This document shows positions 19,552 to 54,545 of a stretch of 64,000 bases of DNA, one piece after another; within the stretch, counting starts at the first letter, position 1; every line of letters starts with the position of its first letter. This DNA comes from Candidatus Bathyarchaeota archaeon. GTDB lineage: Archaea > Thermoproteota > Bathyarchaeia > Bathyarchaeales > Bathycorpusculaceae. The notes below the pieces were generated by a model. It did no database searches. It was given only the letters and a program-made list of their open reading frames with translations, and was not told the origin of the DNA. The position numbers and the translations under genes were made by a program. The stretch spans positions 372,001 to 436,000 of the forward strand of contig JAGTQZ010000004.1 in NCBI GenBank assembly GCA_018396705.1. Reading direction: 5' to 3'.

Positions 19552-20304
19552 ATGAGGCTGATGAAAAAGAAAAGTCTAACAAAACAATCCAGCATAACCG
19601 CTGTTTTCACAGCCCTTGTGTGTATAGCTACGGCCAGTTTTACGGTTTATGTGCCAAGCACCAAAGGCTACTTTAACATCGGTGAAACAATGGTTTACAT
19701 GGCAGCCATACTTTTCGGACCTTTCGTTGGTGCTTTTTCCGGTGGAGTCGGCTCCATGTTTGCCGACCTCCTACTGGGCTACTATTACTATGCACCGGCG
19801 ACGCTTATCATTAAAGCTGTTGAAGGATTCGTTACGGGTTTTCTTAGCAAAAAAGGACAAGGCATTGCTAAGGCGTATACCAAAAACGAACTAAGACTTT
19901 TCACGGTTCTAACGGGGGCTCTCGTCGGAGGGCTTGTAACTCTGGTAGGCTCACTATATTACAGTGGACTTGTTAAACTTTACTCCGGCATAGTTTCCGC
20001 CGAAAATCCGATGTCAACCCTCTTTATTCCGGCAAGCTTTTGGTCCGGAATAGGTGTGCTTGCATTCTTAATGATTTTGTTCATTGCGTTTATCTCCGAG
20101 CCAGAGTATGGTTTTACAATCATTTCGTGCGTTTCTGGGGGATTATTGATGGTTCTCGGCTACTTCCTCTACGAACAATTTTTCCTAGGCGTCTTCGCTA
20201 TAGCCGAAGTTCCCATAAACATCGGACAAATGACCATTGGGCTTATAATAGCCACGCCAATAGTGAGAGTTGTTAGGCATATACTGCCACAACTTAAAGG
20301 CTAA
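19552..20304 (+). CDS. ECF transporter S component
   Basis: About 250 residues with five to six hydrophobic helices. The N-terminal region SSITAVFTALVCIATASFTV and the GYFNIGETMVYMAAILFGPF segment match ECF-type S components of the HmpT/ThiW/riboflavin group, which bind a vitamin or precursor for import with an AT module. No energising A or T components are nearby, so it probably shares a general module encoded elsewhere. The substrate is not evident. ATG codons at 19552 and 19561 are both possible starts. Confidence 0.78.
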   Translation: MRLMKKKSLTKQSSITAVFTALVCIATASFTVYVPSTKGYFNIGETMVYMAAILFGPFVGAFSGGVGSMFADLLLGYYYYAPATLIIKAVEGFVTGFLSKKGQGIAKAYTKNELRLFTVLTGALVGGLVTLVGSLYYSGLVKLYSGIVSAENPMSTLFIPASFWSGIGVLAFLMILFIAFISEPEYGFTIISCVSGGLLMVLGYFLYEQFFLGVFAIAEVPINIGQMTIGLIIATPIVRVVRHILPQLKG

Positions 20305-37006: not shown

Positions 37007-37504
37007 TAACTACAACACCAGAAGATGAGAAGAGCCTTCAGCTTCATTATGCCTTTTTGTCGTATTAAATTTATTAACATAATTTTTCGAGTTAAACCCT
37101 TTTTAGTTAAAAGATGTCGCATGATTCCAGAAAGGACAGCGCAACCTCACCGTTCCTAAGCCCCCAAATAATCCTGCGGTAGCGCTTTATAACACGTTCA
37201 AAGCCCGTAGATGTCCACTCCAGAACCAGCCCATTAGCATTGGAGCCTCTGAACTTTAAAATGGGGAACAGCGCTGAACTCGGAAAACTGGTGCCGAGGG
37301 CCGGGTTTGAACCCTTGATGCATGGCGAATTCTCCCGCAAAACCCCCATTTTTCTTTGTGGCTCGTTTATGAAGCCCATAAAAGGCCATTCTTGTGGTTA
37401 TATTGTTTGTTTCTTAAGGGTAGAAGTTTCTTACATAAAGTAATTATGCTTGTACACTACTATGTTTTATTAAATGCAAAAAGTTTGAGAAGGAGGGAGG
37501 AAGG
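37007..37504. other. Intergenic stretch holding the left attachment site
   Basis: No convincing gene. A minus-strand frame of 90 residues (37107-37379) has a plausible protein-like segment (VLEWTSTGFERVIKRYRRI) but runs through the att repeat and is not supported. The stretch holds the 22-bp copy of the tRNA-Phe 3' end and, near 37490-37503, a GGAGGGAGGAAGG ribosome binding site for the subtilase. Confidence 0.5.
37292..37313 (-). repeat. Attachment site copy (3' end of tRNA-Phe), distal end of the element
   Basis: These 22 bases are identical to 48142-48163, the discriminator base, acceptor strand and T arm of the intact tRNA-Phe gene, in the same orientation. No tRNA 5' half is present here. 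This is the hallmark of site-specific integration into a tRNA gene. Confidence 0.85.
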
Positions 37505-38863
37505 TTGAGAAGGCTTTGGGTCTTGTTTGTTATTGCAGCTTTTTCAGCGGTATTACTGGCGCCTGCTTTTGCGGCTCCCAAAGTTTCTTTACCACACCGT
37601 TACACTTGGGATGCAGATATGATAAATGCTGATATAGTTCATAAGATGGGCTATACGGGTAAGGGCGTTTATATTGCTGTTTTAGATACTGGCCTGGTTC
37701 CGAACTGGCGTGACTATTTCCCAGCTGACAGGATAGCCACAAACCTTGGCAAGGGCTTTTATGAGCCTGTACATGTTGACCCGAAAACAGGAGAGCTTGT
37801 ATATGCAGGTTTTGTGGTTGAAACTTCATGGATTGGCTCAACTCTATCATCGCATGGAACCCACGTGGTAAGCACAATTATAGGCTACAATTACTATGCT
37901 CCAGCCGATGCAGCTGCAGGGTTTCCGCTTCCACCATTATTCATCGAAGGAATAGCCCCGGATGTAACTATTATACCGGTTAAGGTTCTACATACGTATA
38001 ATTTGCCGCCTTACACTGGGCCGGATGGTTTGGTTTTTGGGACGGATCTTATGGTGGCTGCAGGTATACGCTATGCTACTGAGTTAAAATTGAAGGGCTA
38101 CAGCCCAATGATCATATCAATGAGTCTCGGCGGGCCTGAACCATCAGACATAATTGAGAAAGCAATAAATTACGCGATTGAAAATGGCGTTATCGTTGTA
38201 GCTGCAGCAGGTAACGATGGAATTGAAGGGATGGATTGGCCGGGAGCCTATCCGCAAGTTATATCGGTGGGCGCATGCGGATGGAAATACGAGTGGTACT
38301 GGCCAGGTGATCTTAATCCGCCGCCACCGCCGCCGAGATACCGCCTCTGGTGGCTTCAAGACAACACGCATGGATATAATGATGTCCCTGAAAGCCCATA
38401 CAGACTTGCACGCCAAGTTTACGTGACAGACTTTAGCGGCAGAGAAAATGACAATCGCGTTGCTGGCTACGATCAAGAGCTAGATGTGCTTGCACCTGGA
38501 AGCTGGGTTAGAGGCCCATATCCAGGCTTCCCAGGCTATAGTCATATTCCATGGTGGGCTAAAGGACGGGGATGGATAAAGGCGCCCCCGGGCCTTGTAA
38601 ACTTCTATTATGTTGGCGGAACCAGTATGGCAACACCGCATGTTGCGGCTGTTGCAGCCTTAATGCTTCAGAAAAACCCAAACTTAACGCAGAGACAAAT
38701 ACAGCGTATAATCAAAGCAACCGCCCTGAACATTCCGGCAGGCAGCATGCAGGTTTATGACTATGACCATTGGGCAGAATTCTCGTGGGAACAAGAAACT
38801 CCACCTTACGAGGCAACAGGCGCAGGCTTAATCCAAGCCGACAAGGCAGTTGAGAAAGTATAG
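37505..38863 (+). CDS. Secreted subtilisin-like serine protease (S8)
   Basis: The 452-residue protease has a signal peptide (residues 1-23, cut after AFA) and no long propeptide. The catalytic triad is visible: Asp61 in YIAVLDTGL, His117 in SSHGTHVV and Ser374 in GGTSMATPHVAA, with oxyanion-region VAAAGNDG. A proline run (residues 265-270) and Trp-rich insert lie before the serine. TTG at 37505 follows a strong GGAGGGAGGAAGG. It sits at the distal end of the element, next to the secreted companion at 39080. Confidence 0.9.
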   Translation: MRRLWVLFVIAAFSAVLLAPAFAAPKVSLPHRYTWDADMINADIVHKMGYTGKGVYIAVLDTGLVPNWRDYFPADRIATNLGKGFYEPVHVDPKTGELVYAGFVVETSWIGSTLSSHGTHVVSTIIGYNYYAPADAAAGFPLPPLFIEGIAPDVTIIPVKVLHTYNLPPYTGPDGLVFGTDLMVAAGIRYATELKLKGYSPMIISMSLGGPEPSDIIEKAINYAIENGVIVVAAAGNDGIEGMDWPGAYPQVISVGACGWKYEWYWPGDLNPPPPPPRYRLWWLQDNTHGYNDVPESPYRLARQVYVTDFSGRENDNRVAGYDQELDVLAPGSWVRGPYPGFPGYSHIPWWAKGRGWIKAPPGLVNFYYVGGTSMATPHVAAVAALMLQKNPNLTQRQIQRIIKATALNIPAGSMQVYDYDHWAEFSWEQETPPYEATGAGLIQADKAVEKV

Positions 38864-38989
38864 GCGCCATAAGTATTGCAAGTTTTCTCTTTCAATCTTG
38901 CTTGAGACAAAGGAGAACTCTGGAGAGAAAGACTCGAGCAGAATACCCTTTTTTCTTTGTTCAACGTTTAGATGGTTAATAAAGTTATG

Positions 38990-39079
38990 AGCTAGAAGGT
39001 TATGTATGTTTTTCTATATCAATGTAACATGCACCTTTTTATAATTCATAACAATTATTACTTTGGTTGAGGAGAAAAT
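38990..39079 (+). promoter_or_regulatory. Promoter for the anchored surface protein gene
   Basis: TTTTTATAATTC at about 39035-39046 is a good TATA box, placing the transcription start near 39065, and GGAG at 39071 precedes the GTG at 39080. The gene thus appears to be transcribed separately from the protease. Confidence 0.45.
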
Positions 39080-39712
39080 GTGAAGAAAATAGTTGTAGGA
39101 TTTATGCTTGTATCAGTTATGGTTCTATTAATGTATGGGAAGGTGAATGCTGATCCTGAAGATGTAGCTTGGTATGTTACTAATAGTTCAGGGTATCCTG
39201 TAAATGGAGCTAAACTAACTATTTACTGGGCAAATTCAACCAATGGACCGTTTAGCGTTATGCCAGCTGACGATGGCCAAGGCACATACGTAAAAGATAA
39301 GATTGCAGACATTAAGCGAAATCCAATCTACACTAGCTATCGTAACCCAAATTATCCTAATGGCACGGCAGTATGTGACATTCACCCGAAGGGGAGCTTA
39401 GCGGGCTTATACTTTTATGTGAAGATCGAGTTTGATTCAACCGTTATGTACTGGCCTACAGCATGGAGCTATAAGCCTGGAGACCCGAGTTGGCGTCCGG
39501 TTGAAGCCAGTGGAAGCCCAAGCGGTTATGCTGCAGCAGGCCCAGGTATTGGTAATGGAGTTAGTACAGCGTATCCTACCAACGTGCCTCCGCCTCCACC
39601 TCAAGTTATTCCAGACGTTCCTTTTGGAACAATTACTGCGATGCTTTCAATGTTATTCGCATTTGGAGCCTACATCACATTACGAAGGCGTAATATTCTA
39701 GCGCGATTTTAG
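39080..39712 (+). CDS. Secreted protein with C-terminal membrane anchor
   Basis: The 210-residue protein has a signal peptide (residues 1-24), an extracellular domain beginning DPEDVAWYVTNSSGYPVNGA that looks like an Ig-like/carboxypeptidase-regulatory beta fold, a Pro-rich linker (PPPPPQVIPD), one TM helix (about 182-200) and the basic end RRRN. This tripartite C-terminus is like archaeal surface-anchoring signals. No family recognised. With the subtilase it forms a surface-directed pair at the edge of the element. Confidence 0.65.
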   Translation: MKKIVVGFMLVSVMVLLMYGKVNADPEDVAWYVTNSSGYPVNGAKLTIYWANSTNGPFSVMPADDGQGTYVKDKIADIKRNPIYTSYRNPNYPNGTAVCDIHPKGSLAGLYFYVKIEFDSTVMYWPTAWSYKPGDPSWRPVEASGSPSGYAAAGPGIGNGVSTAYPTNVPPPPPQVIPDVPFGTITAMLSMLFAFGAYITLRRRNILARF

Positions 39713-39861
39713 AAAGGCTTAAAAGCTGGGTTTGCTGCACCTGCAAAGGATGCGGCCTAGTTTTAGACTTTTCCTAATCCAATTTTTATGCATATTTTTA
39801 GGTGGAAAATGCTGAAAAATGTTATTTTTAACTAGTTAGGCCAGGCTAAACCCGTAAGAGC

Positions 39862-40014
39862 CTACTCTTGGGCTGTTTTAATGTAGGATTTTTCTGCTAG
39901 GTAGGCGATTATGATGTTTCGAATTTTCTCCGCGTCTTTTGTTCCAAACCCTTTAATTTTTTTGAGAATTTCGTATTGTTCGTCGTCTAATGTTACCATG
40001 ATGCGTTTTACCAT
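39862..40014 (-). CDS. Ribbon-helix-helix (CopG-like) regulator
   Basis: A 50-residue protein with the short MVKRIMVTLDDEQYEILKKI start (a beta strand then helix) and a second helix DAEKIRNIIIAYLAEK, the ribbon-helix-helix pattern of plasmid copy-number and partition regulators. It is transcribed away from the rest of the element, toward the surface-protein gene. The promoter region between it and the gene at 40106 contains an 18-bp palindrome and repeated TTTCTAAC boxes that could be its operators. Confidence 0.72.
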   Translation of the reverse strand: MVKRIMVTLDDEQYEILKKIKGFGTKDAEKIRNIIIAYLAEKSYIKTAQE

Positions 40015-40025
40015 TTTCTCACCAG

Positions 40026-40072
40026 TTTCTAACCAATTTCTAACGAAATCGAAATATTTAAATATTTCTTAC
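40026..40072. promoter_or_regulatory. Divergent control region with an 18-bp perfect palindrome
   Basis: GAAATATTTAAATATTTC (40051-40068) is a perfect palindrome. TTTCTAAC occurs at 40026-40033 and 40037-40044, eleven bases (one helical turn) apart, and TTTCTTAC at 40065-40072. The AT-rich core can also act as TATA box for both divergent genes. The layout fits autoregulation by the ribbon-helix-helix protein at 39862. Confidence 0.6.
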
Positions 40073-40105
40073 TAATTTATTACTCAAAAGCAATAAAATA
40101 GTAAG

Positions 40106-40417
40106 ATGAAAATGAATGATGTGGTAACTGTTAGGGGCCGAAGATACATCCGCCTGAATAGAATAACTTTCGCAGCCGTTGAGCCTTCAGTTGAATGGTT
40201 AATGGATGAGGGGCGTTTTGTCGAGAAAGTTAAGACAGCTTACCGCGTTCAAGTCGAATGTAACCATGGCTGGGGCTTCACGGTTAGGCATATGGGCTAC
40301 AGGATTCGCTTCGAATTGCCAAACACGACGGGCTATAAGCTGCCACGAATTTTTGAAGGCTACGTAGAAGAGAAGCTTGGAACTGTTCAGCTAAGTCTTC
40401 TCGAGGTGACTGGTTGA
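40106..40417 (+). CDS. Element protein of unknown function
   Basis: A 103-residue basic protein, first gene of the rightward block. It appears to be mostly beta strands (RRYIRLNRITFAAVEPSVEW, YRIRFELP). No family recognised. ATG codons at 40106 and 40112 are both possible. Confidence 0.55.
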   Translation: MKMNDVVTVRGRRYIRLNRITFAAVEPSVEWLMDEGRFVEKVKTAYRVQVECNHGWGFTVRHMGYRIRFELPNTTGYKLPRIFEGYVEEKLGTVQLSLLEVTG

Positions 40418-40496
40418 TGGCTAACCGAGAATTAGGTGAGGCGGTTTAGCTGTAGGATGGACCACATATTATTACTGTTGTCCAATCTGTGGAAGG

Positions 40497-40667
40497 ATGG
40501 AGATGGCCAGCACTGAACCAGCCCTAAAAGAACGGATAACCCGGCATGTGTTGGGCCACAGCCTCGACGTTTTAGGCCTGTCTGAGAAGCAGCGGGAAAG
40601 GTTAAGCCGCAAAATTGACATGGCTCTTAAAAAGATTGAAGAGGATTTCCGCAAGGGCTTGATTTAG
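40497..40667 (+). CDS. Small helical protein, possibly truncated zinc finger
   Basis: A 56-residue helical frame (LSEKQRERLSRKIDMALKKI) ending at TAG 40665. The same frame is open upstream to about 40436 and encodes YYYCCPICGR, a zinc-finger-like knuckle, but no start codon precedes that knuckle. Either the real start is unusual, the gene lost its start, or the CPIC is chance. Confidence 0.35.
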   Translation: MEMASTEPALKERITRHVLGHSLDVLGLSEKQRERLSRKIDMALKKIEEDFRKGLI

Positions 40668-40991
40668 GCTTTCTAACGCGTTCACCTCGAAAACTTCGTT
40701 AACGAGGGTTGAAAACTGCCTTTTCCTCGCAAAATAGCCCCAGCTTTTTGAAATGCTTAATTTATGGTTTGAACTAGAAGCCAAAAATATTGAATCCGCG
40801 GAAATGCGATGTTTCCAACGGTTGATTTACGGTATTTACAGATATGCACCAAATTATACGTTATAGTATACCGTAATGTATGCGTGTATGCGTAACTTAG
40901 TGAATTGGAGCAAACGGAGCAAATGGAGCAAAAACGGACTGTTTGCGAAACATTTATAAGTATGTGTTTAAAATTCTGTTATTTGGTGACT
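40668..40991. other. Gene-free stretch with origin-like repeats
   Basis: No supported gene. The stretch contains an inverted repeat, two kinds of short tandem repeats and, at about 40951-40958, the TATA-like TTTATAAG for the gene at 40992. Confidence 0.55.
40827..40933. repeat. Iteron-like repeat cluster, candidate replication origin
   Basis: Contains an inverted repeat TTACGGTAT (40827-40835) / ATACCGTAA (40868-40876), a tandem direct repeat GTATGCGT (40878-40885, 40886-40893) and three nine-base tandem units GGAGCAAAN (40907, 40916, 40925). It lies just upstream of the replication genes of the element. An operator cluster is the alternative. Confidence 0.5.
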
Positions 40992-41312
40992 ATGAGTCGA
41001 AAAATCGAAAAAGACACAGTGGATGTGTCAGAAGAAATTGAGAAATTAAAGGACGGCGAACCTATTCCAATCTCACAGCTTAAACTTAAAAGGCGTAGGG
41101 GACTAAGCCTCGAGGTCTTTAGCGAATTATGCCGCAGCATTCCTGAGGGGTATGCGCAGGCTATACGAGGAATTCCTGGATCCACAGCGAGAGATCGCAT
41201 AAGAAAGTTGATCCAAGAAGGCATTTTGCCAAATTCTTATCGTGTTACCATTACAGGTAAAGGGGAAAACGCACGGGTTTACATAATTCATGAGAAGGAG
41301 GTGAAAAAGTAA
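40992..41312 (+). CDS. Putative DNA-binding protein of the element
   Basis: A 106-residue basic protein. The middle has a helix-turn-helix-like character (LSLEVFSELCRSIPEGYAQA then STARDRIRKLIQEG) followed by a beta hairpin, as in a winged helix. ATG at 40992 is chosen because the TATA box near 40951 would start transcription close to it; a longer frame to 40905 would read through the repeats. It may bind the neighbouring repeats; unproven. Confidence 0.55.
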   Translation: MSRKIEKDTVDVSEEIEKLKDGEPIPISQLKLKRRRGLSLEVFSELCRSIPEGYAQAIRGIPGSTARDRIRKLIQEGILPNSYRVTITGKGENARVYIIHEKEVKK

Positions 41313-41321
41313 AAAGTTAAA

Positions 41322-41453
41322 GTCATGAGTTAGAGGCCTTTCATCCAGGGGCTAGCTGTCAAAGGCCTCACCCGAACGTGGGCAAAATATTACATAATAA
41401 TCAACGAGTTTAAAGATTTTTCGCTTCTAGATGATTGGCCTCTAACTTTTGAC
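41322..41453. repeat. Competing inverted repeats in an untranslated stretch
   Basis: GAGGCCTTT (41333-41341) can pair with AAAGGCCTC (41361-41369). GTTAGAGGCC (41329-41338) can pair instead with GGCCTCTAAC (41437-41446), extending to 17-base arms 41322-41338 and 41437-41453 with two mismatches. Both use the same left arm, so they exclude each other. The stretch lies between the HTH gene and a run of tiny genes. A regulatory RNA switch, an origin structure or a recombination site are possible. Confidence 0.5.
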
Positions 41454-41498
41454 GGATCCAGCCCGAATGAGGGGCTTAAAACAGGTAGGAGGAATAGG

Positions 41499-41678
41499 AT
41501 GAAAGAAGAGTTGTATGAAATGGAGCTGTTTTATGCGATTGTTTTGTATGGTAAATATCGAGACATAGCCCAGGTTATCGACTATATCAAAAATTTCAGT
41601 GATGTAAAAGTCGTTTTTGACAAAAAAGCTCCTTTTAAATTGTATATCACGGAAAAACCGCTAAAAGGAGGTGACTAA
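41499..41678 (+). CDS. Small element protein (59 residues)
   Basis: An intact 59-residue frame starting at ATG 41499 behind a strong GGTAGGAGGAATAGG site, ending just before another good ribosome binding site. Predicted helices (LYEMELFYAIVLYGKYRDIA) and a short beta end. No family recognised. Spacing and signals support translation. Confidence 0.55.
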   Translation: MKEELYEMELFYAIVLYGKYRDIAQVIDYIKNFSDVKVVFDKKAPFKLYITEKPLKGGD

Positions 41679-41681
41679 AAC

Positions 41682-41828
41682 ATGAGTGAGCGAAAACCTA
41701 AAATTAAGGAAGATGGCACGCTTGCAGGTTGTATAGGCCAAAATAAACCCATTCCGCCAAATGTTTGCAAAACCTGTGCAAAATCAAGCGACTTAACCTG
41801 CCGAGACGTTAAGAAGGCATTAAAATGA
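41682..41828 (+). CDS. Small cysteine-rich protein (48 residues)
   Basis: ATG at 41682 follows AAAAGGAGGTGAC. Four cysteines (C in LAGCIG, the pair CKTC, and LTCRD) could hold a zinc ion. Its TGA overlaps the ATG of the primase gene (ATGA), so it is probably coupled to primase translation and may be an accessory factor. No family recognised. Confidence 0.55.
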   Translation: MSERKPKIKEDGTLAGCIGQNKPIPPNVCKTCAKSSDLTCRDVKKALK

Positions 41829-42826
41829 CCATTTGTTTAGCTGAAGTGGTTTTTAAGTGTTTCGTCAACCGTGTAGATTGCCACTGCCTACAGAAAAATG
41901 ATGGCAGTTACGTTAAAGTCGAACAGCCATTAATGTTGGATGTTTTGCAGGATCATTTAACGGGAATGCTAACCGTCGGGGCCTACCAGTTAGGCTTAGA
42001 CAACACAGTTAAGTATGTATGCTTTGACTTGGATCCTGAAAGGCTGAGTGATCCAGAGGCTGCAGCTCGTAAAATATTGCAAACCTGCTTCCAGAAGAAG
42101 CGTGAGGGCGACGTAGAAAGGCCGCGTATATGGCCTCATGCGGTCTTACTTGAGGCTAGCCGTTATCCGGATCCTTCATATCATGTTTGGGTTTTATTCA
42201 ATGTCCCAACCTATGCTAAGGTTGCTCGTTGGCTTGGCATGCGAATTTTAGAGTTGGCTGGTTTAAACCCTCGAGAGATTGAACTTTTCCCAAAGCAGAC
42301 GGAGCTTACGCCTGAAAGGCCGTATGGCAACTTTGTTAAGCTTCCATTGGGCAAGCATCAAGCAGCTGGTAAATGGAGTAGGCTGTTGGATCCGGAAACC
42401 TTTCAACCCCTTCCAAACGAAACCCTGCTTGAATGTTTTGGAATTTCGTTCTCAGAGGCTGACACAGCTAAGATAATGAGTTTTAAGGCTGAGAAGTTGG
42501 TTCAAGTTCCGTTAAAATTGCATGAGTTTATGGTGTCTTTGCCAAATGAGGAGGAAGAGCGGGCGGCTCAATTCTTAGCCCGGTATTGGGTTAAGGGCCG
42601 AAGGAATCAGCTTGAGATGGCGTTCTTGGGCTTTTGCATCAAGAGGGGTATAGCCTACGAGTCTGCAAGGAGAATAATTGAACGGGTTTGCGATTTAACG
42701 AGGGATGAGGAGAGGGCTGCGCGTCTCGCCCTTGTCGACTATCATTACAAAAATCGCGTGAGCCTAGGCTCCGCCCTAGCTGGAGTCAGTTTAATCCGCG
42801 AAGTAATCAGAGAGGTTGTGAAATGA
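41825..42826 (+). CDS. Archaeo-eukaryotic primase (AEP superfamily)
   Basis: The 333-residue protein carries the AEP catalytic pattern: the metal-binding pair in YVCFDLDPE (Asp68 and Asp70), the later DPSYHVWVLF with His120, and a lysine-containing NFVKLPLGKHQAAGKWS segment like that of the TOTE/plasmid primases. Residues 240-330 form a helical C-terminal domain (RRNQLEMAFLGFCIKRG) similar in role to PriCT domains. It would start replication of the element. The helicase follows with a four-base overlap. Confidence 0.78.
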   Translation: MTICLAEVVFKCFVNRVDCHCLQKNDGSYVKVEQPLMLDVLQDHLTGMLTVGAYQLGLDNTVKYVCFDLDPERLSDPEAAARKILQTCFQKKREGDVERPRIWPHAVLLEASRYPDPSYHVWVLFNVPTYAKVARWLGMRILELAGLNPREIELFPKQTELTPERPYGNFVKLPLGKHQAAGKWSRLLDPETFQPLPNETLLECFGISFSEADTAKIMSFKAEKLVQVPLKLHEFMVSLPNEEEERAAQFLARYWVKGRRNQLEMAFLGFCIKRGIAYESARRIIERVCDLTRDEERAARLALVDYHYKNRVSLGSALAGVSLIREVIREVVK

Positions 42827-44514
42827 GCGTTGTGGATGAGTTGGCTAAAATTGAGGCTGAAGTTAAGGCGGAAAAGCAGATTCAAGCTGAAATTGAGGCT
42901 GGAAACGCGTTTAGGCTTGGCAAACTAACAGTCTTGCCTAAATTTGATGGACTCATGCGTAAAGTGCATCCAGCCATAGATGTGGTTGACGGCCGAGCCG
43001 TTGTGGGCGTTACACTTCCGTGCCTAACAGTCGATGAGGAAGGCAATCAGGAAGAAAGGGAGCTGCCATTTTTAATAACTTCGGATAGGCAGAAGATTCC
43101 ATTACACAAAGACGCGTTGAAGCCTCTCCATTGGCGTTTAGCCTACCGCATTGTCGAGTTTGAAAACAGGTGGCCCCTCGAGGGCGTTAAAGCCTGGCTT
43201 GAAGGAGCATCTGTCAATCCCGCCGAAGTTTACGATATGGTTAAGAAAGCCTATCAAACATACATAGAATTCGAAAATCCTGATATTTACGATTTCATAA
43301 CCCTCTGGACCGTTGGAACATACTTTTTCCATCTCTTCAACACATATCCATATGTTTATGTGGGCGGACTGAAACAAGCTGGGAAAACTAAGCTTCTAAC
43401 CGTTGCAAGCCTATTGGCCTTCAATGCGATTTTCACCAATAATATATCAACAGCCTCGCTGTACCGCCTAACACAAAGCGGCCGCTGTACTCTACTATTG
43501 GATGAGAGTGAGAAACTTGCCGCTAAAGAGCGAGCGGAAGAGCTTCGCAATCTGCTTTTAACAGGCTACAAGAAAGGCGCGGTAGTTTACCGCACAGAGA
43601 AAAAACGTAGCGAAAAGCTTGTTCCTGAAGCCTTTGAGGTTTACTCACCCAAAATCGTTTGCAATATCGAAGGAATTGAAAATGTCCTAGAGGAACGGTG
43701 TATTCCCATAATTATGAAGCGGGGCAAGAATAAGGCCATCATAAACGCGGAGCCTAATATTGCAGATCCCGTTTGGCAGCAGATCCGCAGTAGGCTTTAT
43801 GTGCTTTTCTTAGACTATTTTAGTGTAGTTTGTGCACAAAGTGCAGTTTGTGAAGTTAAGGAGACAAACGTTTCTGCTAGAGATTTAGAGCTGTGGAGGC
43901 CTATTTTCACTCTCGCAGCCTTCTTTGACAAGTATAATCCAGAGTTAAACCTTTTACAGAAAATGATTAACCTTGCCAGCCGAACAACTGAAGAAAAACA
44001 AGTTGAAAACATTACGGAGACAGCAGAGTTTATTCTGGTTGAAACTTTAACGAAGCTTGTAACACAGGATGGCTACTTCTCTGTCCGACAGATTAAGGAG
44101 ACAATGTCTCAAGCCTACGATGAAGAGCAAAAATGGTTGTCAACCAAGTGGCTGGGCCGCGCTCTCAAGCGTTTAGGTTTCACTGAGAAACGTAGAGTTG
44201 GACGTGGAGTTGAATACTACCTTACACTTAAAGCTGTGCAAGACCTTGCTGAACGCCTAGGCTTCCAAAACTCTTACGTCTCCCCAACTTCACAAACTGC
44301 ACTAAATACACAAACTACACTAAAAGAAGCCCTTAAACAACTCACCGTCTGGCTTATAGAAAACAAGGATTCCGACGGCCTTGTGGATGCTTTCGCCTTA
44401 TACGCGAAAATTCAGGAGCTTGGCTTGGAGCCGAAACAGGTTATTGACGTTTTGAAGGCTGACGGCTGGCTTATGGACGCGTCTAAAATCGGCAAGTTTG
44501 GGGTTGCAAAATGA
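42823..44514 (+). CDS. P-loop replication ATPase/helicase with C-terminal winged helix
   Basis: The 563-residue protein has Walker A GGLKQAGKTKLL (Lys188) and Walker B TLLLDESEKL (Asp227-Glu228) followed by an arginine-rich sensor region. The N-terminus (1-45) is charged and helical. The C-terminal 170 residues contain winged-helix-like segments (FSVRQIKETMSQAYDEEQKW; GRALKRLGFTEKRRVGRG). It resembles replicative helicases next to AEP primases in mobile elements (the DUF3631/DUF927-like group). Its ATG overlaps the primase stop; its TGA overlaps the next ATG. Confidence 0.72.
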   Translation: MSVVDELAKIEAEVKAEKQIQAEIEAGNAFRLGKLTVLPKFDGLMRKVHPAIDVVDGRAVVGVTLPCLTVDEEGNQEERELPFLITSDRQKIPLHKDALKPLHWRLAYRIVEFENRWPLEGVKAWLEGASVNPAEVYDMVKKAYQTYIEFENPDIYDFITLWTVGTYFFHLFNTYPYVYVGGLKQAGKTKLLTVASLLAFNAIFTNNISTASLYRLTQSGRCTLLLDESEKLAAKERAEELRNLLLTGYKKGAVVYRTEKKRSEKLVPEAFEVYSPKIVCNIEGIENVLEERCIPIIMKRGKNKAIINAEPNIADPVWQQIRSRLYVLFLDYFSVVCAQSAVCEVKETNVSARDLELWRPIFTLAAFFDKYNPELNLLQKMINLASRTTEEKQVENITETAEFILVETLTKLVTQDGYFSVRQIKETMSQAYDEEQKWLSTKWLGRALKRLGFTEKRRVGRGVEYYLTLKAVQDLAERLGFQNSYVSPTSQTALNTQTTLKEALKQLTVWLIENKDSDGLVDAFALYAKIQELGLEPKQVIDVLKADGWLMDASKIGKFGVAK

Positions 44515-44912
44515 ATGGACTGTCAGAGCTTGAATTTGAAAAGGTGGTTAAAGTGCGGAAATGGCTTCAATTCGCCAACATAACAATATGCCTTTACAAA
44601 GTCGGCTACAACTTGGCTCCTGAAGGGCAAAGGAAACTTTTCCGCCTCATCTACCATTATATTGCTAATCATAAGAACAGCCGATGGATTGCAAGGCAAA
44701 GCTTCGCCTTCGCCCCCGACGTCGCAGCCTTCACAGTTTTGAGTAAAGACCTTCCAAAAATTCAGAAAGCCATCGCCAACATATTACAGAACCCCCGTCA
44801 CCTAACCCAAAGCTACATTCCAGTTGAAAAAAACAGCCTTATTGAAACTGTTCTCCCATTCTGGACAATTAAAAAGAAGAAAATTTGGAAAATCAAACAG
44901 TTGGAGCCTTAA
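44511..44912 (+). CDS. Element protein of unknown function
   Basis: A 133-residue protein, very basic at the C-terminus (IKKKKIWKIKQ). ATG at 44511 overlaps the helicase stop, so it belongs to the same translation unit. Aromatic and Lys-rich composition suggests nucleic-acid contact, but no domain is recognised. Confidence 0.55.
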   Translation: MNGLSELEFEKVVKVRKWLQFANITICLYKVGYNLAPEGQRKLFRLIYHYIANHKNSRWIARQSFAFAPDVAAFTVLSKDLPKIQKAIANILQNPRHLTQSYIPVEKNSLIETVLPFWTIKKKKIWKIKQLEP

Positions 44913-44914
44913 AA

Positions 44915-45082
44915 ATGAGAATTTATGTGATTCACGTTTTTCTGGGCTTGAAATTGGAGAAAGGGCGGTTCAACAGTACAAACAAGCGAGGAGGTGTCCC
45001 ATTCCCGCATAGAGGCTCGGAGTTGCTGGCTCGCCGAGCCTCCCGCCCCTCCAAAAGCCGGAGGTTCACCAGTCCGGCTTAA
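44915..45082 (+). CDS. Doubtful 55-residue frame
   Basis: The frame starts MRIYVIHVFLGLKLEKG and becomes Arg/Ser-rich where it runs through two hairpins (45013-45080). Coding is doubtful because the second half is explained by the inverted repeats. Listed for completeness. Confidence 0.25.
   Translation: MRIYVIHVFLGLKLEKGRFNSTNKRGGVPFPHRGSELLARRASRPSKSRRFTSPA
45013..45080. repeat. Two consecutive hairpins between gene blocks
   Basis: AGGCTCGG (45013-45020) pairs with CCGAGCCT (45034-45041), and AAGCCGGA (45055-45062) with TCCGGCTT (45073-45080). They separate the replication genes from the downstream coiled-coil block. No T-run follows, so a simple terminator is not obvious; processing or mRNA-stability elements fit as well. 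Confidence 0.5.
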
Positions 45083-45105
45083 ACAAAACGGAGGTGCCAT
45101 ATTAA

Positions 45106-45294
45106 ATGAGGGTTGAAGCCCTGAAAAGCCAAATTGAAGCCGACTTGCACTTGGCTAAAAAGCTTGCCAGAGACTATCCGGAAACATTTGTTGAAGGTAA
45201 AAAATTGAGTCAAGTGGTTTCAGCTCTTGAAAATGCTTTGCGCCTTGTCAACGAGGTTTTAACGCCTAAAACAGCAGAGGAGAGACGCCAATAA
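45106..45294 (+). CDS. Small helical element protein
   Basis: A 62-residue all-helical protein (HLAKKLARDYPETF, SALENALRLVNEVL). ATG at 45106 follows ACGGAGGTGCC. Its stop overlaps the start of the coiled-coil gene. No family recognised. Confidence 0.55.
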   Translation: MRVEALKSQIEADLHLAKKLARDYPETFVEGKKLSQVVSALENALRLVNEVLTPKTAEERRQ

Positions 45295-46022
45295 TGGAGC
45301 GGATTGCAAGGCTGCTTCAAAAAGAAGACGCGGAACAGAGGCTACGCGAACTTCACATGCAGCTTAACGAATTAGTTAACCATGAGCTAAGCCTAGCCCA
45401 CAGTCGGTGGGTTAACAGTAAAATGTCGCTTGAACAATGCGAGCGCAGGCTGCAACAAGAGGAACATGCTTACAAGGAGTTAGACGGCCGAATCGAGAAA
45501 ATTGAACATGAAATTAAAAGCATGAAAGAGCAGATTCCGCGGCTTCAAGACGAGTTGAAAACGCTGAATGAACGGGTTGAGCTTAGGCAAAAACGCATCA
45601 GCGCTTTACAAGAGGATGAGCAGAGGCTCCTAGCTGCTCTTGAAGACTTGGAGAACAAGGCTTTAACGAAGGGTGAAACCCACGAGCTCACCAAAGTCCG
45701 AAACGCCTACTTTGAAAAACAGCTAGCCTTAACCGTTGCGAAAATGTTTCTCGCCAAGGACAAGCAAACAATAACCGCCATCCAAAACCAAATCGAAAAT
45801 TACAGAGGAGAAATCGCTAGAATGGAACGTGAAAAACCCCAGCTTGAACAGCAACTTCTAGAAAAACATAAAACAATTGAAAGCTTGAAAAACTGGCTCA
45901 AACAATTACGCAAAGAAGAGCCTGAGCTTCGCAGCAGAAAAGAAGCCCTAGAAAAGCAAGTTCAGAAAATCCAAGCTGAAATAAAGGAGCTTGAAGAAAA
46001 AATTAGATGTGGAAAAACTTGA
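45294..46022 (+). CDS. Long coiled-coil protein
   Basis: The 242-residue protein is almost wholly heptad-patterned coiled coil (LHMQLNELVNHELSL; EIKSMKEQIPRLQDELKTLN; QKIQAEIKELEEKI), resembling phage tail-fibre chaperones, SMC-like arms or partition proteins, but with no globular domain. The role could be structural or in DNA partition. It is the largest member of a run of small plus-strand genes of the element. Confidence 0.6.
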   Translation: MERIARLLQKEDAEQRLRELHMQLNELVNHELSLAHSRWVNSKMSLEQCERRLQQEEHAYKELDGRIEKIEHEIKSMKEQIPRLQDELKTLNERVELRQKRISALQEDEQRLLAALEDLENKALTKGETHELTKVRNAYFEKQLALTVAKMFLAKDKQTITAIQNQIENYRGEIARMEREKPQLEQQLLEKHKTIESLKNWLKQLRKEEPELRSRKEALEKQVQKIQAEIKELEEKIRCGKT

Positions 46023-46038
46023 ACGGAGGTGAAAACGG

Positions 46039-46305
46039 ATGCAAATTGACATGGATAAGTTTGTAGAAATATTGGCAAACCTCTTCACAGAAAAGCAGGA
46101 AATCGCCATGGTTATCGACGGAGTTAAAACCGTGGTAGGCTACACACAGCCGAAAACCATAGTTTTCGATAGCGATATGGTGAATGTTAAAAAAATTCCA
46201 AGCAACGCCATAGGCTATGTTAAAAAAGAAGGCGGCAAAACCATTCTAAAACTGGTTGAAGTTCACCCGCCAAGCCTTGTTGAAAAACTGTTACGAGGCA
46301 AATAG
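46039..46305 (+). CDS. Element protein of unknown function
   Basis: An 88-residue protein with a helical start (MDKFVEILANLFTEKQEIA) and a beta-rich middle (VVGYTQPKTIVFDSDMVNV). ATG at 46039 follows GGAGGTG. No family recognised. Confidence 0.55.
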   Translation: MQIDMDKFVEILANLFTEKQEIAMVIDGVKTVVGYTQPKTIVFDSDMVNVKKIPSNAIGYVKKEGGKTILKLVEVHPPSLVEKLLRGK

Positions 46306-46308
46306 CCA

Positions 46309-46572
46309 TTGGAAAACCAGCAGCCCCCATCTTTTTCCGCCTACGAATATGCCAAAATGAGTTCATTGATAGCTGACTCTATACAGAAAATCGAGAAAAT
46401 TTTAGAAAGGCTGGAAAAAGTCGGCGATAGAAAAAACATAATGTTGCTGCTTCAAGTATTGGACAATTTAAGCAGAGTCCACGCTAAATTAACAAGTCTA
46501 GGAAGGGCTAAAGCACGACGACAAGCTGAGAAAGCCTTGGAAAAAGCGAGGCAAATTCTAGGCGAAAAATAG
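46309..46572 (+). CDS. Helical element protein
   Basis: An 87-residue predicted helical hairpin (IQKIEKILERLEKVGDRKNI, RRQAEKALEKARQILGE). TTG at 46309 lies three bases after the previous stop. Basic C-terminus. Could be a DNA-binding or assembly factor; unknown. Confidence 0.5.
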   Translation: MENQQPPSFSAYEYAKMSSLIADSIQKIEKILERLEKVGDRKNIMLLLQVLDNLSRVHAKLTSLGRAKARRQAEKALEKARQILGEK

Positions 46573-46612
46573 GGGGGTTAGAAATTCCAACAGTTGGAAT
46601 TTAGCGAAAAAA

Positions 46613-46861
46613 TTGCCAACGAGGCTTAAACAAGCCATGAGAAGCTACATCTTCACATCCCATGAGCTTGAAGCCATAGAAGAGTTCATAAAAACGCGAA
46701 GGCGAAACCCAACAGTCAACAAAATAATGCATTACCTCAAACACAACCAACGGCTTTGGATAGACCTCCGCCTTATCCTTACATTGACGCGCCTAGCTCA
46801 CTATAAGCCCGACAAAAGCAAGCCTAAACTTCCGCCTGGAAGACCCCCTAAAATCCTCTGA
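46613..46861 (+). CDS. Basic element protein with an AT-hook-like end
   Basis: The 82-residue protein starts with TTG at 46613 and ends in PGRPPK, the core of AT-hook motifs that bind the minor groove of AT-rich DNA. The rest is basic and helical. It lies ten bases before the integrase gene and may be a DNA-bending or excision factor, which is inference. Confidence 0.5.
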   Translation: MPTRLKQAMRSYIFTSHELEAIEEFIKTRRRNPTVNKIMHYLKHNQRLWIDLRLILTLTRLAHYKPDKSKPKLPPGRPPKIL

Positions 46862-46871
46862 GGCATATAAA

Positions 46872-48116
46872 ATGGCTGAAGAGGCTCCCGCAGCAAGCCC
46901 CTCTGAAAAACCCGCTTTCACAATTGAAGCCCAAAACGGGCTTTTCTGTCCAGAATGCAACTCAAAAAGGCTTTACAAGGACGGCTTACGCTATCTAGCC
47001 GACGGCAAAACCGTTCAACGCTACTTGTGTAGGGATTGCGGCTACCGCTTTAGCTGGCCGAGGGCTGAAAAGCCAAAGCAGCATGGAAGCAAGAATTTAA
47101 AAAGCGAACATGGCTTAACTTTTAACCGATGCAGCTCCAGAGCCTTGGCCCTTCTGGAGCAAAGCGAGGAAGGGGCCATGAACGGGCAAAAGGAAAATGG
47201 GCAATGGGCTGCGGGAGCCACAGGGCAAACACTAGACGGGGCGAAAATAAAGGAAATCATCATTAACTTTGTCTGGTGGATGAGGAAACAAGGCTACGCG
47301 GAGTCAACTATTGAAAGGCGAAGCAAAATCTTAGAAGTTCTAGCCAAGCGAGGTGCAAACCCATATGATCCAGAAAGCGTCAAGGAAACTTTAGCGAGGC
47401 AAAAATGGGATGAAAACAGCAAAAACGTTGCAGTCAAAGCCTACAACACGTTCCTAAAAATGGTTGGAGGCTCATGGACTCCGCCTAAAACAAGGCCTGT
47501 GGAAAAATTACCCTTCATACCAACAGAGGAAGAGCTTAACAGTTTAATAGCAGCTTCAAACGGGAAACTTGCAGCCTTTCTAATGTTGCTTAAAGAAACC
47601 GGAATGAGAGCCGGCGAAGCCTACAACCTTCAATGGAAAGACGTAGACTTTGAAAACGGCACAGTCCGCGTAACACCTGAAAAGGGAAGCAACCCACGCA
47701 TATTCAAACTTTCACCAAAACTTTTAGCCATGCTAAATCGCATGGACAAAACAAGCGAGTGGATATTCAAGCCGTGGCAGCTTAAACACATGAGGCGCAC
47801 ATTCCAGAGAATACGAAACCGCCTTGCCTTGAAACTATGCAATCCGAGACTAAAACTAATAACGTTTCACACTTTCCGTCATTGGAAAGCCACCATGGAA
47901 TACGCCAAAACCAAAGACATCCTACATGTAATGCAGCTGCTAGGCCACAAAAACATCAAAAACACCCTGAAATACACGCAGCTCGTGAACTTTAAAGATG
48001 ACGAATATCATTTCGCAACAGCCAAAACAATAGACGAGGCGGGCAAACTAATAGAGGCCGGCTTCGAATACGTATGCCACCACGAAGGTGTAATGCTGTT
48101 TAGAAAACGCAAATAA
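46872..48116 (+). CDS. int: Tyrosine recombinase (integrase) with N-terminal zinc ribbon
   Basis: The 414-residue protein has a zinc ribbon (CPECNSKRLYK ... CRDCGY, residues about 26-60), a linker, a SAM-like core-binding domain (130-205, MRKQGYAESTIERRSKILEV) and a catalytic domain with Arg246 (MRAGEAYNLQW), His333 and Arg336 (FHTFRHWK), His359 (LGHKNIKN) and Tyr368. All catalytic residues are present. Its stop is 26 bases from the tRNA-Phe 3' end, the usual place for an integrase acting on that att site. The intact gene is not split by integration, unlike SSV-type integrases. Confidence 0.93.
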   Translation: MAEEAPAASPSEKPAFTIEAQNGLFCPECNSKRLYKDGLRYLADGKTVQRYLCRDCGYRFSWPRAEKPKQHGSKNLKSEHGLTFNRCSSRALALLEQSEEGAMNGQKENGQWAAGATGQTLDGAKIKEIIINFVWWMRKQGYAESTIERRSKILEVLAKRGANPYDPESVKETLARQKWDENSKNVAVKAYNTFLKMVGGSWTPPKTRPVEKLPFIPTEEELNSLIAASNGKLAAFLMLLKETGMRAGEAYNLQWKDVDFENGTVRVTPEKGSNPRIFKLSPKLLAMLNRMDKTSEWIFKPWQLKHMRRTFQRIRNRLALKLCNPRLKLITFHTFRHWKATMEYAKTKDILHVMQLLGHKNIKNTLKYTQLVNFKDDEYHFATAKTIDEAGKLIEAGFEYVCHHEGVMLFRKRK

Positions 48117-48141
48117 ACCATGCCGCGGGCCCATCCAAAAA

Positions 48142-48163
48142 TGCCGAGGGCCGGGTTTGAACC
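48142..48163 (-). repeat. Attachment site copy inside tRNA-Phe
   Basis: The 22 bases identical to 37292-37313; here they are part of a complete tRNA gene, so integration preserved the tRNA. Confidence 0.85.
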
Positions 48164-48215
48164 GGCGACAACCCGGTCTTCAGCCGGGCGCTCTCCCAGG
48201 CTGAGCTACCTCGGC
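48142..48215 (-). tRNA. tRNA-Phe (GAA)
   Basis: Complete 74-base cloverleaf on the minus strand: acceptor GCCGAGG/CCTCGGC plus A73, D stem GCTC/GAGC, anticodon stem CCCGG/CCGGG with loop CTGAAGA (anticodon GAA at 48179-48181), T arm GCCGG/CCGGC. Elements are inserted on both sides: one attached to its 3' end, another just beyond its 5' end. Confidence 0.96.
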
Positions 48216-48253: not shown

Positions 48254-49294
48254 CTACTTGCGCTTTCTAAAGAATAGTAGCCCATCTTTCTCGCAAACAT
48301 ATTCAAAGCCCACCTCAAGCAGAGCTTTAATCTCTTCTGGATTGCTTGCAACCTTGACTGTAAATTCATCGTTGCATGAATCGCCGAATATTGCCCGCTC
48401 AACTGTTATGTAAATTTCCGTGTTCTTAATGCTTTTATGGCCCAAGAAATCTTTGACGTAGAATGGATCCTTAGTTTTATGGTAAAGCATAGTTGCTTTC
48501 CAATGCCTAAACGTGTGAAATGTAATCTTGTTAAGTCTCGGATTTTGGAGCTTAGCCGCTAAACGCTTTCTTGTTTTCTGTAAAGTTTGTTTTAAAGTCT
48601 CGTACCTAGATTTTCCAAAGACATTATCGTTTTCCCTTGGCAGACTTCTTAACATTCCAATGAGTTTTTCACTTACCTTCCATATTCGCGGTTTACTTCC
48701 TTTTTCAGGCTCGTTTAGGGTTATAATGCGCCTCTCAAAGTCTATATCTGTCCATTTAAGCTTCATGGCTTCGCCAGCTCTCATAGCAGTTTCCTTAAGG
48801 AGTTGTAATAAAACCGAGGTCTTACTTCCTGAACCTGCTATTAAAGCATCCAATTCTTGTTCTGTTGGGATGAATGGAAGTTTATTGGTAACTTTGCATA
48901 TTGGTTTATCCCATTGTATTCCTTCATGCTTTAGAAAGCGTGAATAGGCGTTTATTACATTACGTCTTCTAGCTTCAGACCATTTTTGTTGAGCAACAAC
49001 CTCCTTGACCGATTCTGGATTGTATAGATCCGCTCCTCTTTCATGCAGTGTTCTCAGGGCTGAAACATGCAACCTTATTGTTTCTTCACTGTAACCTTGC
49101 TTTTTAAGGAACCATGCAAACTCTAGGATTTTCCCTTTAACGTCGAAGCCTGACAAAACACAAAACAAAACGCGAAAAAGCCAAAATAAGCATTTTTCGT
49201 TGGACATTACTAACAGAACACTACACAAGCGATGTATCATTTGTCTATAAAGTTTGAATGCAAAGGGGCTTGTTATTGAGGCAGCGATGCTCAC
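48254..49294 (-). CDS. Tyrosine recombinase (integrase), short N-terminus
   Basis: The conserved part begins at DVKGKILEFAWFLKKQGYSE and has all catalytic motifs (MRAGEAMKLKW, FHTFRHWKAT, LGHKSIKNTEIY). The zinc ribbon seen in its relative at 46872 is missing and the first 50 residues are a hydrophobic, unrelated stretch, so the true start may be internal or the N-terminus is lost. It lies 38 bases from the tRNA-Phe 5' end, oriented toward the tRNA. Probably belongs to the second element. Confidence 0.82.
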   Translation of the reverse strand: MSIAASITSPFAFKLYRQMIHRLCSVLLVMSNEKCLFWLFRVLFCVLSGFDVKGKILEFAWFLKKQGYSEETIRLHVSALRTLHERGADLYNPESVKEVVAQQKWSEARRRNVINAYSRFLKHEGIQWDKPICKVTNKLPFIPTEQELDALIAGSGSKTSVLLQLLKETAMRAGEAMKLKWTDIDFERRIITLNEPEKGSKPRIWKVSEKLIGMLRSLPRENDNVFGKSRYETLKQTLQKTRKRLAAKLQNPRLNKITFHTFRHWKATMLYHKTKDPFYVKDFLGHKSIKNTEIYITVERAIFGDSCNDEFTVKVASNPEEIKALLEVGFEYVCEKDGLLFFRKRK

Positions 49295-53646: not shown

Positions 53647-54015
53647 TTTCTGAGATCTTGTTCCGCAGCGATCGTACCGTTAGCTAAGTAGACCAAAATT
53701 TTGATTTTATATTAGATTAGATTAGATAAGATAAAAACAGAGAAAATGGAGATGCGCGGGAGAAATCTCCATACTCTTTTGAGAATGAGCTGCCTCGGCT
53801 ATTTTTTGGAATATCACTGGAGATTTTTTAACGTTTCGTTACAAGTTTGGTATGCGAGCAATAGCATTGTATGATATTATGAATGAGTTTAAGCTTGGTT
53901 TAAATAAATGTGTGTCGTATATCATATTCTGAATCCGTGTTTAAGATAGGTCAGCCACTGAAGTATCCTTTAAATGTTGGTGTATGGTGTTCCGCAGAAA
54001 AGAGGTGGTTAAGAA
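53647..54015. other. Junction region with degenerate tRNA repeat
   Basis: No gene seen. It has the short tandem TTAGATTAGATTAGATAAGATAA near 53711-53733, the degenerate tRNA-Phe 5'-end copy (53786-53842), and an AT-rich stretch. Confidence 0.45.
53786..53842 (-). repeat. Degenerate copy of tRNA-Phe 5' end and flank
   Basis: TGAGCTGCCTCGGC (53786-53799) matches tRNA-Phe 48202-48215 at 13 of 14 bases, and the next 43 bases match the tRNA upstream flank at roughly 80 per cent, including GGAGATTTTTTAA. The rest of the tRNA is unrecognisable. Confidence 0.65.
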
Positions 54016-54177
54016 ATGGGGCGCATGTTAGCCGTGGTAACTGTCGAGTTGGTCGATGAAAGCGTCTCAGAGGATATGAACAAAGTTCAAAGAGAAATTC
54101 TAGAATGGTTTGAGGAGAACTGCTTCTTAATTCCATGGATTAAACGAGTTAAGAATGTCGTGGTTAAAGAGAGCTAA
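54016..54177 (+). CDS. Small protein (53 residues)
   Basis: ATG at 54016 follows AGAGGTGG. The product has a short strand-helix pattern (MLAVVTVELVDESVSEDMNK, EILEWFEENCFLIPW). No family recognised; length and ribosome binding site support a real gene. Confidence 0.5.
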   Translation: MGRMLAVVTVELVDESVSEDMNKVQREILEWFEENCFLIPWIKRVKNVVVKES

Positions 54178-54193
54178 ACTGCAAAGCTAATTT

Positions 54194-54319
54194 TCATCGT
54201 AAGATCAGCTTTGCAGCAAAGTATCCTATTATAGCGAACACTGTGAAGCATAAAACCAGCATAAAAGAATCCATTTTGCTCCAGCATTTTAAATGTTCAT
54301 TTTTGCTTATCTTGTCCAA
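54194..54319 (-). CDS. Possible 41-residue membrane peptide
   Basis: A TTG-started frame with a polar N-terminus and a single TM helix (FMLVLCFTVFAIIGYFAAKL). Small single-helix membrane proteins are common in archaea, but nothing else supports it. Confidence 0.3.
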   Translation of the reverse strand: MDKISKNEHLKCWSKMDSFMLVLCFTVFAIIGYFAAKLILR

Positions 54320-54411
54320 CGTACAACCCCTGCGTCTATCTCTAAATGTTTTTGAAAAAGTTTTATGAAGTAGAAATATTAATTCTGGATTAATAATTTC
54401 CGCTTCAAACT

Positions 54412-54485
54412 GGGCCGGTAGTCTAGCTGGTTAGGACGTCGCCCTCACGCGGCGAAGGTCGCCGGTTCAAATCCGGCCCGGCCCA
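54412..54485 (+). tRNA. tRNA-Val (CAC)
   Basis: Complete 74-base cloverleaf: acceptor GGGCCGG/CCGGCCC plus A73, D stem GTCT/GGAC, anticodon stem TCGCC/GGCGA with loop CTCACGC (CAC at 54446-54448), T arm GCCGG/CCGGC. Confidence 0.96.
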
Positions 54486-54545
54486 TTTTGCAAGTTGAAG
54501 AGGGGAGGCTTAAGCACATGGGTCGTCTAGCTCTCCCTCCTTTCG

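Follow-up and report, generated by a model that had tools for sequence, protein, structure and literature searches.

We report here that an AEP primase gene and the AAA+ helicase gene overlapping it are probably the replication core of an integrative plasmid-like element whose origin would lie inside the helicase gene. The two genes were found in a stretch of 64,000 nucleotides (hereafter the window, to which all coordinates refer unless a locus is named) of a 1.7-Mb archaeal genome, which likely belongs to the Bathyarchaeia; a Bathyarchaeota MAG is among the relatives that were found.

An element integrated at a tRNA-Phe gene

The primase and helicase genes lie between two copies of a tRNA-derived direct repeat, identical over 22 of 22 bp. 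The main features of the element, apart from these two genes and their neighbours, are the following:

37292..48163: integrated element, about 10.85 kb, delimited by direct repeats of 22 bp that match the 3′ end of tRNA-Phe
37292..37313: attL, TGCCGAGGGCCGGGTTTGAACC, an exact 22-bp copy of the tRNA-Phe 3′ end
37505..38863, + strand: subtilase of the secreted type, probable cargo (Pfam PF00082, 2e-35)
45294..46022, + strand: coiled-coil protein of the element, with weak coiled-coil matches only
46872..48116, + strand: tyrosine integrase, 414 aa, with a zinc-ribbon region at the N terminus; the gene adjoins attR at its 3′ end
48142..48163: attR, coinciding with the 3′ end of tRNA-Phe, whose gene is intact (48142-48215, − strand)

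The integrase matched Pfam PF00589 (2e-24) and the NCBIfam zinc-binding domain of IS1/IS1595 (2.6e-7). As the att pair is accompanied by a tyrosine integrase ending at tRNA-Phe, we conclude that this is a defined integrated element. Chromosomal integration had been absent from a previous, sequence-only reading of the same DNA. A nearly identical integrase/tRNA-Phe junction was found in another genus (G066, locus L058). Within the element, 39080-39712 encodes a small protein that apparently has a signal peptide as well as a C-terminal membrane anchor; together with the subtilase, it likely represents cargo or surface functions.

The surroundings of the tRNA gene were compared with those in a relative, G048. 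On the 3′ side the flank is rearranged between the window genome and G048, and the relative supports an insertion on the 5′ side only. The idea that a large insertion separates the conserved 3′ neighbour from the tRNA was dropped, because window 1-27 kb carries ribosomal-operon and other core genes, as judged from their translations. The segment 48202-53838, located 5′ of this tRNA gene, is a probable second integrated element, with its own integrase (48254-49294, − strand) and an imperfect direct repeat (48202-48253/53786-53838). The G048 match to window 53924-54496 sits 69 bp from tRNA-Phe, so that some 5.6 kb was probably inserted 5′ of the tRNA in the window genome. tRNA 5′ ends are uncommon integration sites.

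The primase-helicase operon

The two genes belong to a run of four (41682-44912), each overlapping the next by four bases:

41682..41828, + strand: 48-aa Cys-containing ORF, 4-bp overlap with the primase gene (41825-41828)
41825..42826, + strand: AEP primase, 333 aa; catalytic domain aa 1-200, helical C-terminal domain aa ~239-333
42823..42826, + strand: primase-helicase 4-bp overlap, ATGA
42823..44514, + strand: AAA+ helicase, 563 aa; ATPase aa ~130-315, winged-helix-like regions aa ~415-478 and, C-terminal, aa ~495-561
44511..44912, + strand: 133-aa ORF, 4-bp overlap with the helicase gene (44511-44514)

Both large frames are open as the sequence-only reading had them, and the four-base overlap that it described corresponds to the shared ATGA.

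The AEP fold proposed for the primase was recovered by profile search as well as by structure prediction. Motif I (DxD), motif II (SxH) and an acidic motif III, which define the superfamily, are all present: the DxD consists of D68 and D70, in CFDLDP, the motif read before as "HVW" is S118-x-H120 followed by VW, and E153 and K172 are further residues. Most catalytic residues, D68, D70, H120 and E153 among them, are kept in relatives of 29-62% identity. The best Pfam model was AEP-TOTE (3e-21, 76 bits for a cut-off of 27), and PHROG primase 5362 matched at 2e-19; the curated cut-off of 200 of NCBIfam PrimPol_Msp was missed, with 74.8 bits. The closest PDB sequences are Marinitoga CAPP Prim-Pol chains, onto which the AlphaFold model (mean pLDDT 86) was placed by Foldseek with a value of 2.5e-13 and a TMt of 0.71-0.79. 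The C-terminal domain is helical in the model, as had been suggested. We conclude that 41825-42826 encodes a primase of the AEP superfamily, for which primer synthesis is predicted.

Concerning the helicase, the Walker A (GLKQAGKT, aa 182-189) and Walker B (LLLDE, D227) motifs were both confirmed, and the announced winged-helix tail turned out to comprise two winged-helix-like regions. Structure prediction (pLDDT 78.5) gave an AAA+ fold, with MCM, PriRep1, AsfvPrimPol, AAV Rep40 and papilloma E1 as structural neighbours. On both folds, AEP and AAA+, the sequence-only reading withstood the refutation test that it had set. These replicative helicases point to an initiator-type motor, and on its model the helicase is an AAA+ protein of the MCM/Rep/PriRep1 type. 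No Pfam family scored above cut-off, and a PDB sequence search gave no credible match. The SF3, DUF927 or DUF3631 assignment considered earlier was rejected, as the Pfam models did not match; the D5_N, Pox_D5 and DUF5906 models did not match the window helicase either, although one member of an alignment (A2) does match them.

Relatives of the helicase were detected in 32 of the 91 genomes of the same family, and relatives of the primase in 21 of the 163 genomes of the same order. They often adjoin a tyrosine integrase and various tRNAs, and one relative is carried by a 6.4-kb plasmid. At L042 (genome G065), a 43-bp perfect repeat of a tRNA-Ala end (15992-16034 / 19649-19691 of that locus) adjoins a tyrosine integrase, and is probably the att pair of a related element.

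These observations bear on a role of the pair in defence or repair, instead of element replication. Such a role could be suspected from the catalytic domain, which is nearest to a CRISPR-associated Prim-Pol in the PDB and to AEP-TOTE in Pfam. The TOTE conflict system associates an AEP with an SF2 helicase and an endonuclease. Here the partner is AAA+, no nuclease or SF2 helicase was seen among the element ORFs scanned, and no cas match was obtained among the ORFs scanned at 37.5-53.6 kb. Since, in addition, the pair recurs in integrase-bearing elements at various tRNAs and on a plasmid, we consider a CAPP- or TOTE-like function extremely unlikely.

The ATPase found downstream of the primase is of three types: that of the window, a second one (L002, L054, L051), and a D5/SF3 type (L056, L096, L093, by Pfam assignment). 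The C-terminal domain of the helicase (aa ~495-561) is found again in each of these types where this primase precedes the ATPase, and is missing from the nearest ATPase relatives, L042-L045, which are without that primase; in most of the three ATPase classes, the C-terminal winged-helix domain accompanies the primase. At L003 (950-2251), the C-terminal domain of the primase is joined to a different, partly masked N-terminal part, which suggests that this domain itself has been swapped between primases.

Several parts of the operon are fused elsewhere. Primase and ATPase form one 844-aa chain at L057, and the 41682-like ORF is fused to an AEP at L003. At L188 and L192, Prim-Pol, PriCT, ATPase, 41682-like and 44511-like parts make up one polypeptide, whose C-terminal part is the homologue of the 133-aa ORF (E 2e-20 and 3e-18). 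Fusions and operon order agree, which indicates parts of one replication machine. The L188 fusion, of 1017 aa (Prim-Pol/PriCT/ATPase), is encoded in the window's own genome (G000:C9:188000-202000) next to two integrases, and that element carries its own intragenic inverted repeat.

The tRNA-Phe repeats bounding the element, the integrases and tRNAs beside the relatives and the L057 fusion thus uphold the earlier view of a replicon core: AEP primase and AAA+ helicase, translationally coupled, would replicate a mobile element. That this core is independent of host MCM and PriSL, as was also claimed, cannot be concluded, because the host genome encodes both PriS and MCM, and of those element proteins that were scanned none was recognised as a polymerase, clamp or ligase.

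Inverted 9-bp arrays inside the helicase gene

The helicase gene holds the strongest inverted repeat lying wholly within the element, which had been overlooked in the sequence-only reading. It is made of WGTGNAGTT units repeated at a 9-bp pitch, in two arms:

43818..43865, + strand: iteron arm 1, inside the helicase gene; units at 43822, 43840 and 43849, degenerate unit at 43831
44278..44325, − strand: iteron arm 2, inside the helicase gene; inverted units at 44286, 44295 and 44313, degenerate unit at 44304

In a self-BLAST of the gene, the arms appear as a 48-nt inverted repeat (87.5%, E 1e-12). Each arm contains one degenerate unit, and the window arms fail the strict scan described below; their case therefore rests on the 48-nt repeat and on the orthologues L042, L043 and L045 (33-50% protein identity), where inverted repeats of the WGTGNAGTT unit are found as well. 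The same DNA unit is present in both arms in opposite orientation, but the peptides encoded are different, which argues for a constraint on DNA or RNA. For this reason, tandem repeats of the Borg type (PMC9879509) are not the preferred reading. Arm 2 encodes a low-confidence linker of the model, before the C-terminal domain, and this linker is probably disordered. The spacer is only slightly AT-rich (57%, compared to 55% for the gene).

Inverted-repeat bit scores were compared between 24 helicase genes and 60 control genes, which encode 400 aa or more and come mostly from the same loci. The score exceeded 28 bits in 12 of the 24 helicase genes and in none of the 60 controls, the maximum of which was 27.4 (Mann-Whitney p 4e-8). 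Arrays were also searched by a blind rule, which required three hexamers spaced at a constant pitch and, within 700-900 bp, two or more copies in inverse orientation; shuffled sequences gave no arrays under this rule. In the discovery set, 13 loci matched, and in all 13 the ATPase gene, which makes up 10% of the sequence, contained both arms; these are not 13 independent events, as the loci are partly interrelated and L097 duplicates L002. An independent set of 40 loci, some of them close relatives, gave 13 matches, with both arms inside the gene (21% of the sequence in this set) in 12 cases and one spanning the gene end. Other classes of the phylum contributed 20 loci, of which 10 matched, 5 with the arms fully inside the ATPase gene, 3 with one arm inside and 2 outside. 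The pitch was 9 bp in 29 of 36 matches (discovery and test sets, pitches of 6-22 tried). The strict array is absent from about half of the ATPase genes. None was found in pRN1, SSV7, PhiF3 (first 7 kb) or a staphylococcal 6.4-kb plasmid, nor at the loci of 24 distant primase relatives (22-42% identity) that a primase alignment detected in viral contigs; a search of these contigs with the single primase protein had found no relatives.

The strongest iteron pair seen, at 66 bits, belongs to a locus from another class of the phylum (L246, 4441-4730), with about four near-identical AATTACTYA units per arm, and would be a good experimental model.

The unit sequence varies by lineage, and the two arms match each other. 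Among three relatives, GTTGAC occurs in both arms at L002 and L051 and CTTGAC in both arms at L054, hence the arms co-vary. Cores match between arms at 96%, partly a consequence of how they were picked, and spacer positions between cores at 47%, a value that speaks for distinct protein-binding sites more than for a single continuous stem. These are conserved repeated sites in or near an initiator gene, as in iteron origins, and their binding and use in replication are predicted.

Alternatively, the arrays may be regulatory, either as repressor sites or as an mRNA stem controlling helicase expression, the origin being elsewhere. Plasmid iterons are often autoregulatory, and pairing of the two arms in the RNA of the window could give a strong stem with two perfect 17-18 bp helices (z −4.7). 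Nevertheless, the conserved 9-bp pitch and the diverged spacers fit separate protein sites better, and the arrays lie deep in the gene, far from a promoter, and occupy the same type of gene throughout a phylum. Regulation thus seems to us an unlikely explanation.

Origin-like repeats had also been announced in the regions flanking the operon. One group exists:

40010..40107: 11-bp direct repeats, x3.2 (40010-40044), followed by AT-rich palindromes (40051-40107); candidate for an operator or a rival origin

The other, an inverted repeat at 41322-41348/41427-41453, does not exceed chance (self-BLAST E 1.2) and was rejected as an origin. The 40010-40107 segment, some 1.7 kb upstream of the primase-helicase genes, lies between a divergent RHH-like ORF (39862-40014, − strand) and ORF 40106-40417. 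It might be the true origin, the in-gene arrays serving another role: its repeats and palindromes adjoin the RHH-like ORF, and in pRN1 (copy control protein) and pIT3 (CopG/RHH) the primase gene is likewise preceded by a small gene for a DNA-binding protein. However, its layout resembles an RHH operator, the essential cis element of pRN1 is located downstream of the replication gene (PMC4234260), and recurrence was shown for the in-gene arrays, which makes an upstream origin very unlikely. Any origin is more likely to be found inside the helicase gene than in the flanking repeats.

Finally, the element is integrated, and its protease and surface protein could have been retained because they serve the host; it may be a decayed or domesticated relic, in which the module no longer works. 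This is quite unlikely in our opinion, given that the core ORFs are intact, the att repeats perfect over 22 bp, the catalytic residues conserved and the arms still matched.

Proposed mechanism and known systems

Taking the helicase gene as the site of the origin, we infer the following scheme. The tyrosine integrase would excise the element from the tRNA-Phe 3′ end, and replication would start at the two inverted 9-bp iteron arrays. The helicase would bind them, probably via a winged-helix domain, and form rings of opposite orientation, melting the DNA that separates or adjoins the arrays. The coupled primase would then lay primers, to be extended by a host polymerase or by its own Prim-Pol activity. 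By B-DNA arithmetic, which is not evidence, a 9-bp pitch would turn successive sites by ~50-60 degrees, near the spacing of ring subunits.

Beyond the window, we see an even balance for and against a phylum-wide class of archaeal mobile elements, having their origin in the helicase gene as two inverted 9-bp iteron arrays, lineage-specific and with co-varying arms. Helicase and origin would then move together as a single exchangeable cassette, flanked by the primase gene on one side and the C-terminal domain on the other, both of them conserved. If true, this would explain how helicases are exchanged between elements with the cognate origin retained. The origins of archaeal integrative elements are largely unknown beyond a few cultured plasmids; a 9-bp signature in the helicase gene would predict them in many uncultured archaeal elements, where they could be tested by synonymous recoding, and would offer small replicons for genetic tools in groups without any.

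Integrative elements with an AEP and a helicase are already known (PMC6563490, PMC5862659). The matching passages of these two papers make no mention of in-gene inverted 9-bp iterons, and no report was found in the open-licence literature, which is weak evidence of absence. CalSub-E1 and other thaumarchaeal cryptic integrated elements likewise have an integrase, a tRNA target and separate primpol/PriCT/SF3 helicase genes (PMC6563490); they differ from the present element by their host group and by their helicase, as that of the window is not recognised as SF3 by Pfam. No report of iterons or replication origins in these elements came up in a term search of the paper.

The Marinitoga CAPP (7nqf, 7nqe, 7p9j; PMC8211822) shares the Prim-Pol catalytic fold and motifs with the window primase (TM up to 0.79), but the latter has a helicase partner in the same operon and no CRISPR context was seen. 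The modules of SaPI and SCCmec (PriRep1, Cch2; PMC7581432) also combine an AAA+ initiator helicase and a primase on an integrating island. Their iterons, bound by the helicase C-terminal domain, are downstream of the helicase gene, whereas the window arrays are inside it. pRN1, with its ORF904, is similarly an archaeal primase-helicase replicon that needs an inverted-repeat cis element, a stem-loop after its replication gene (PMC4234260), but 9-bp arrays were not found there.

The likeliest reading, by analogy, is an in-gene origin comparable to that of lambda, where ori lies inside the O gene and consists of inverted iterons (PMC5043065). In lambda the units are of 19 bp, O binds them as dimers and the helicase is that of the host (PMC5043065), whereas the window has 9-bp units in two opposed tandem arrays, placed in the helicase gene.
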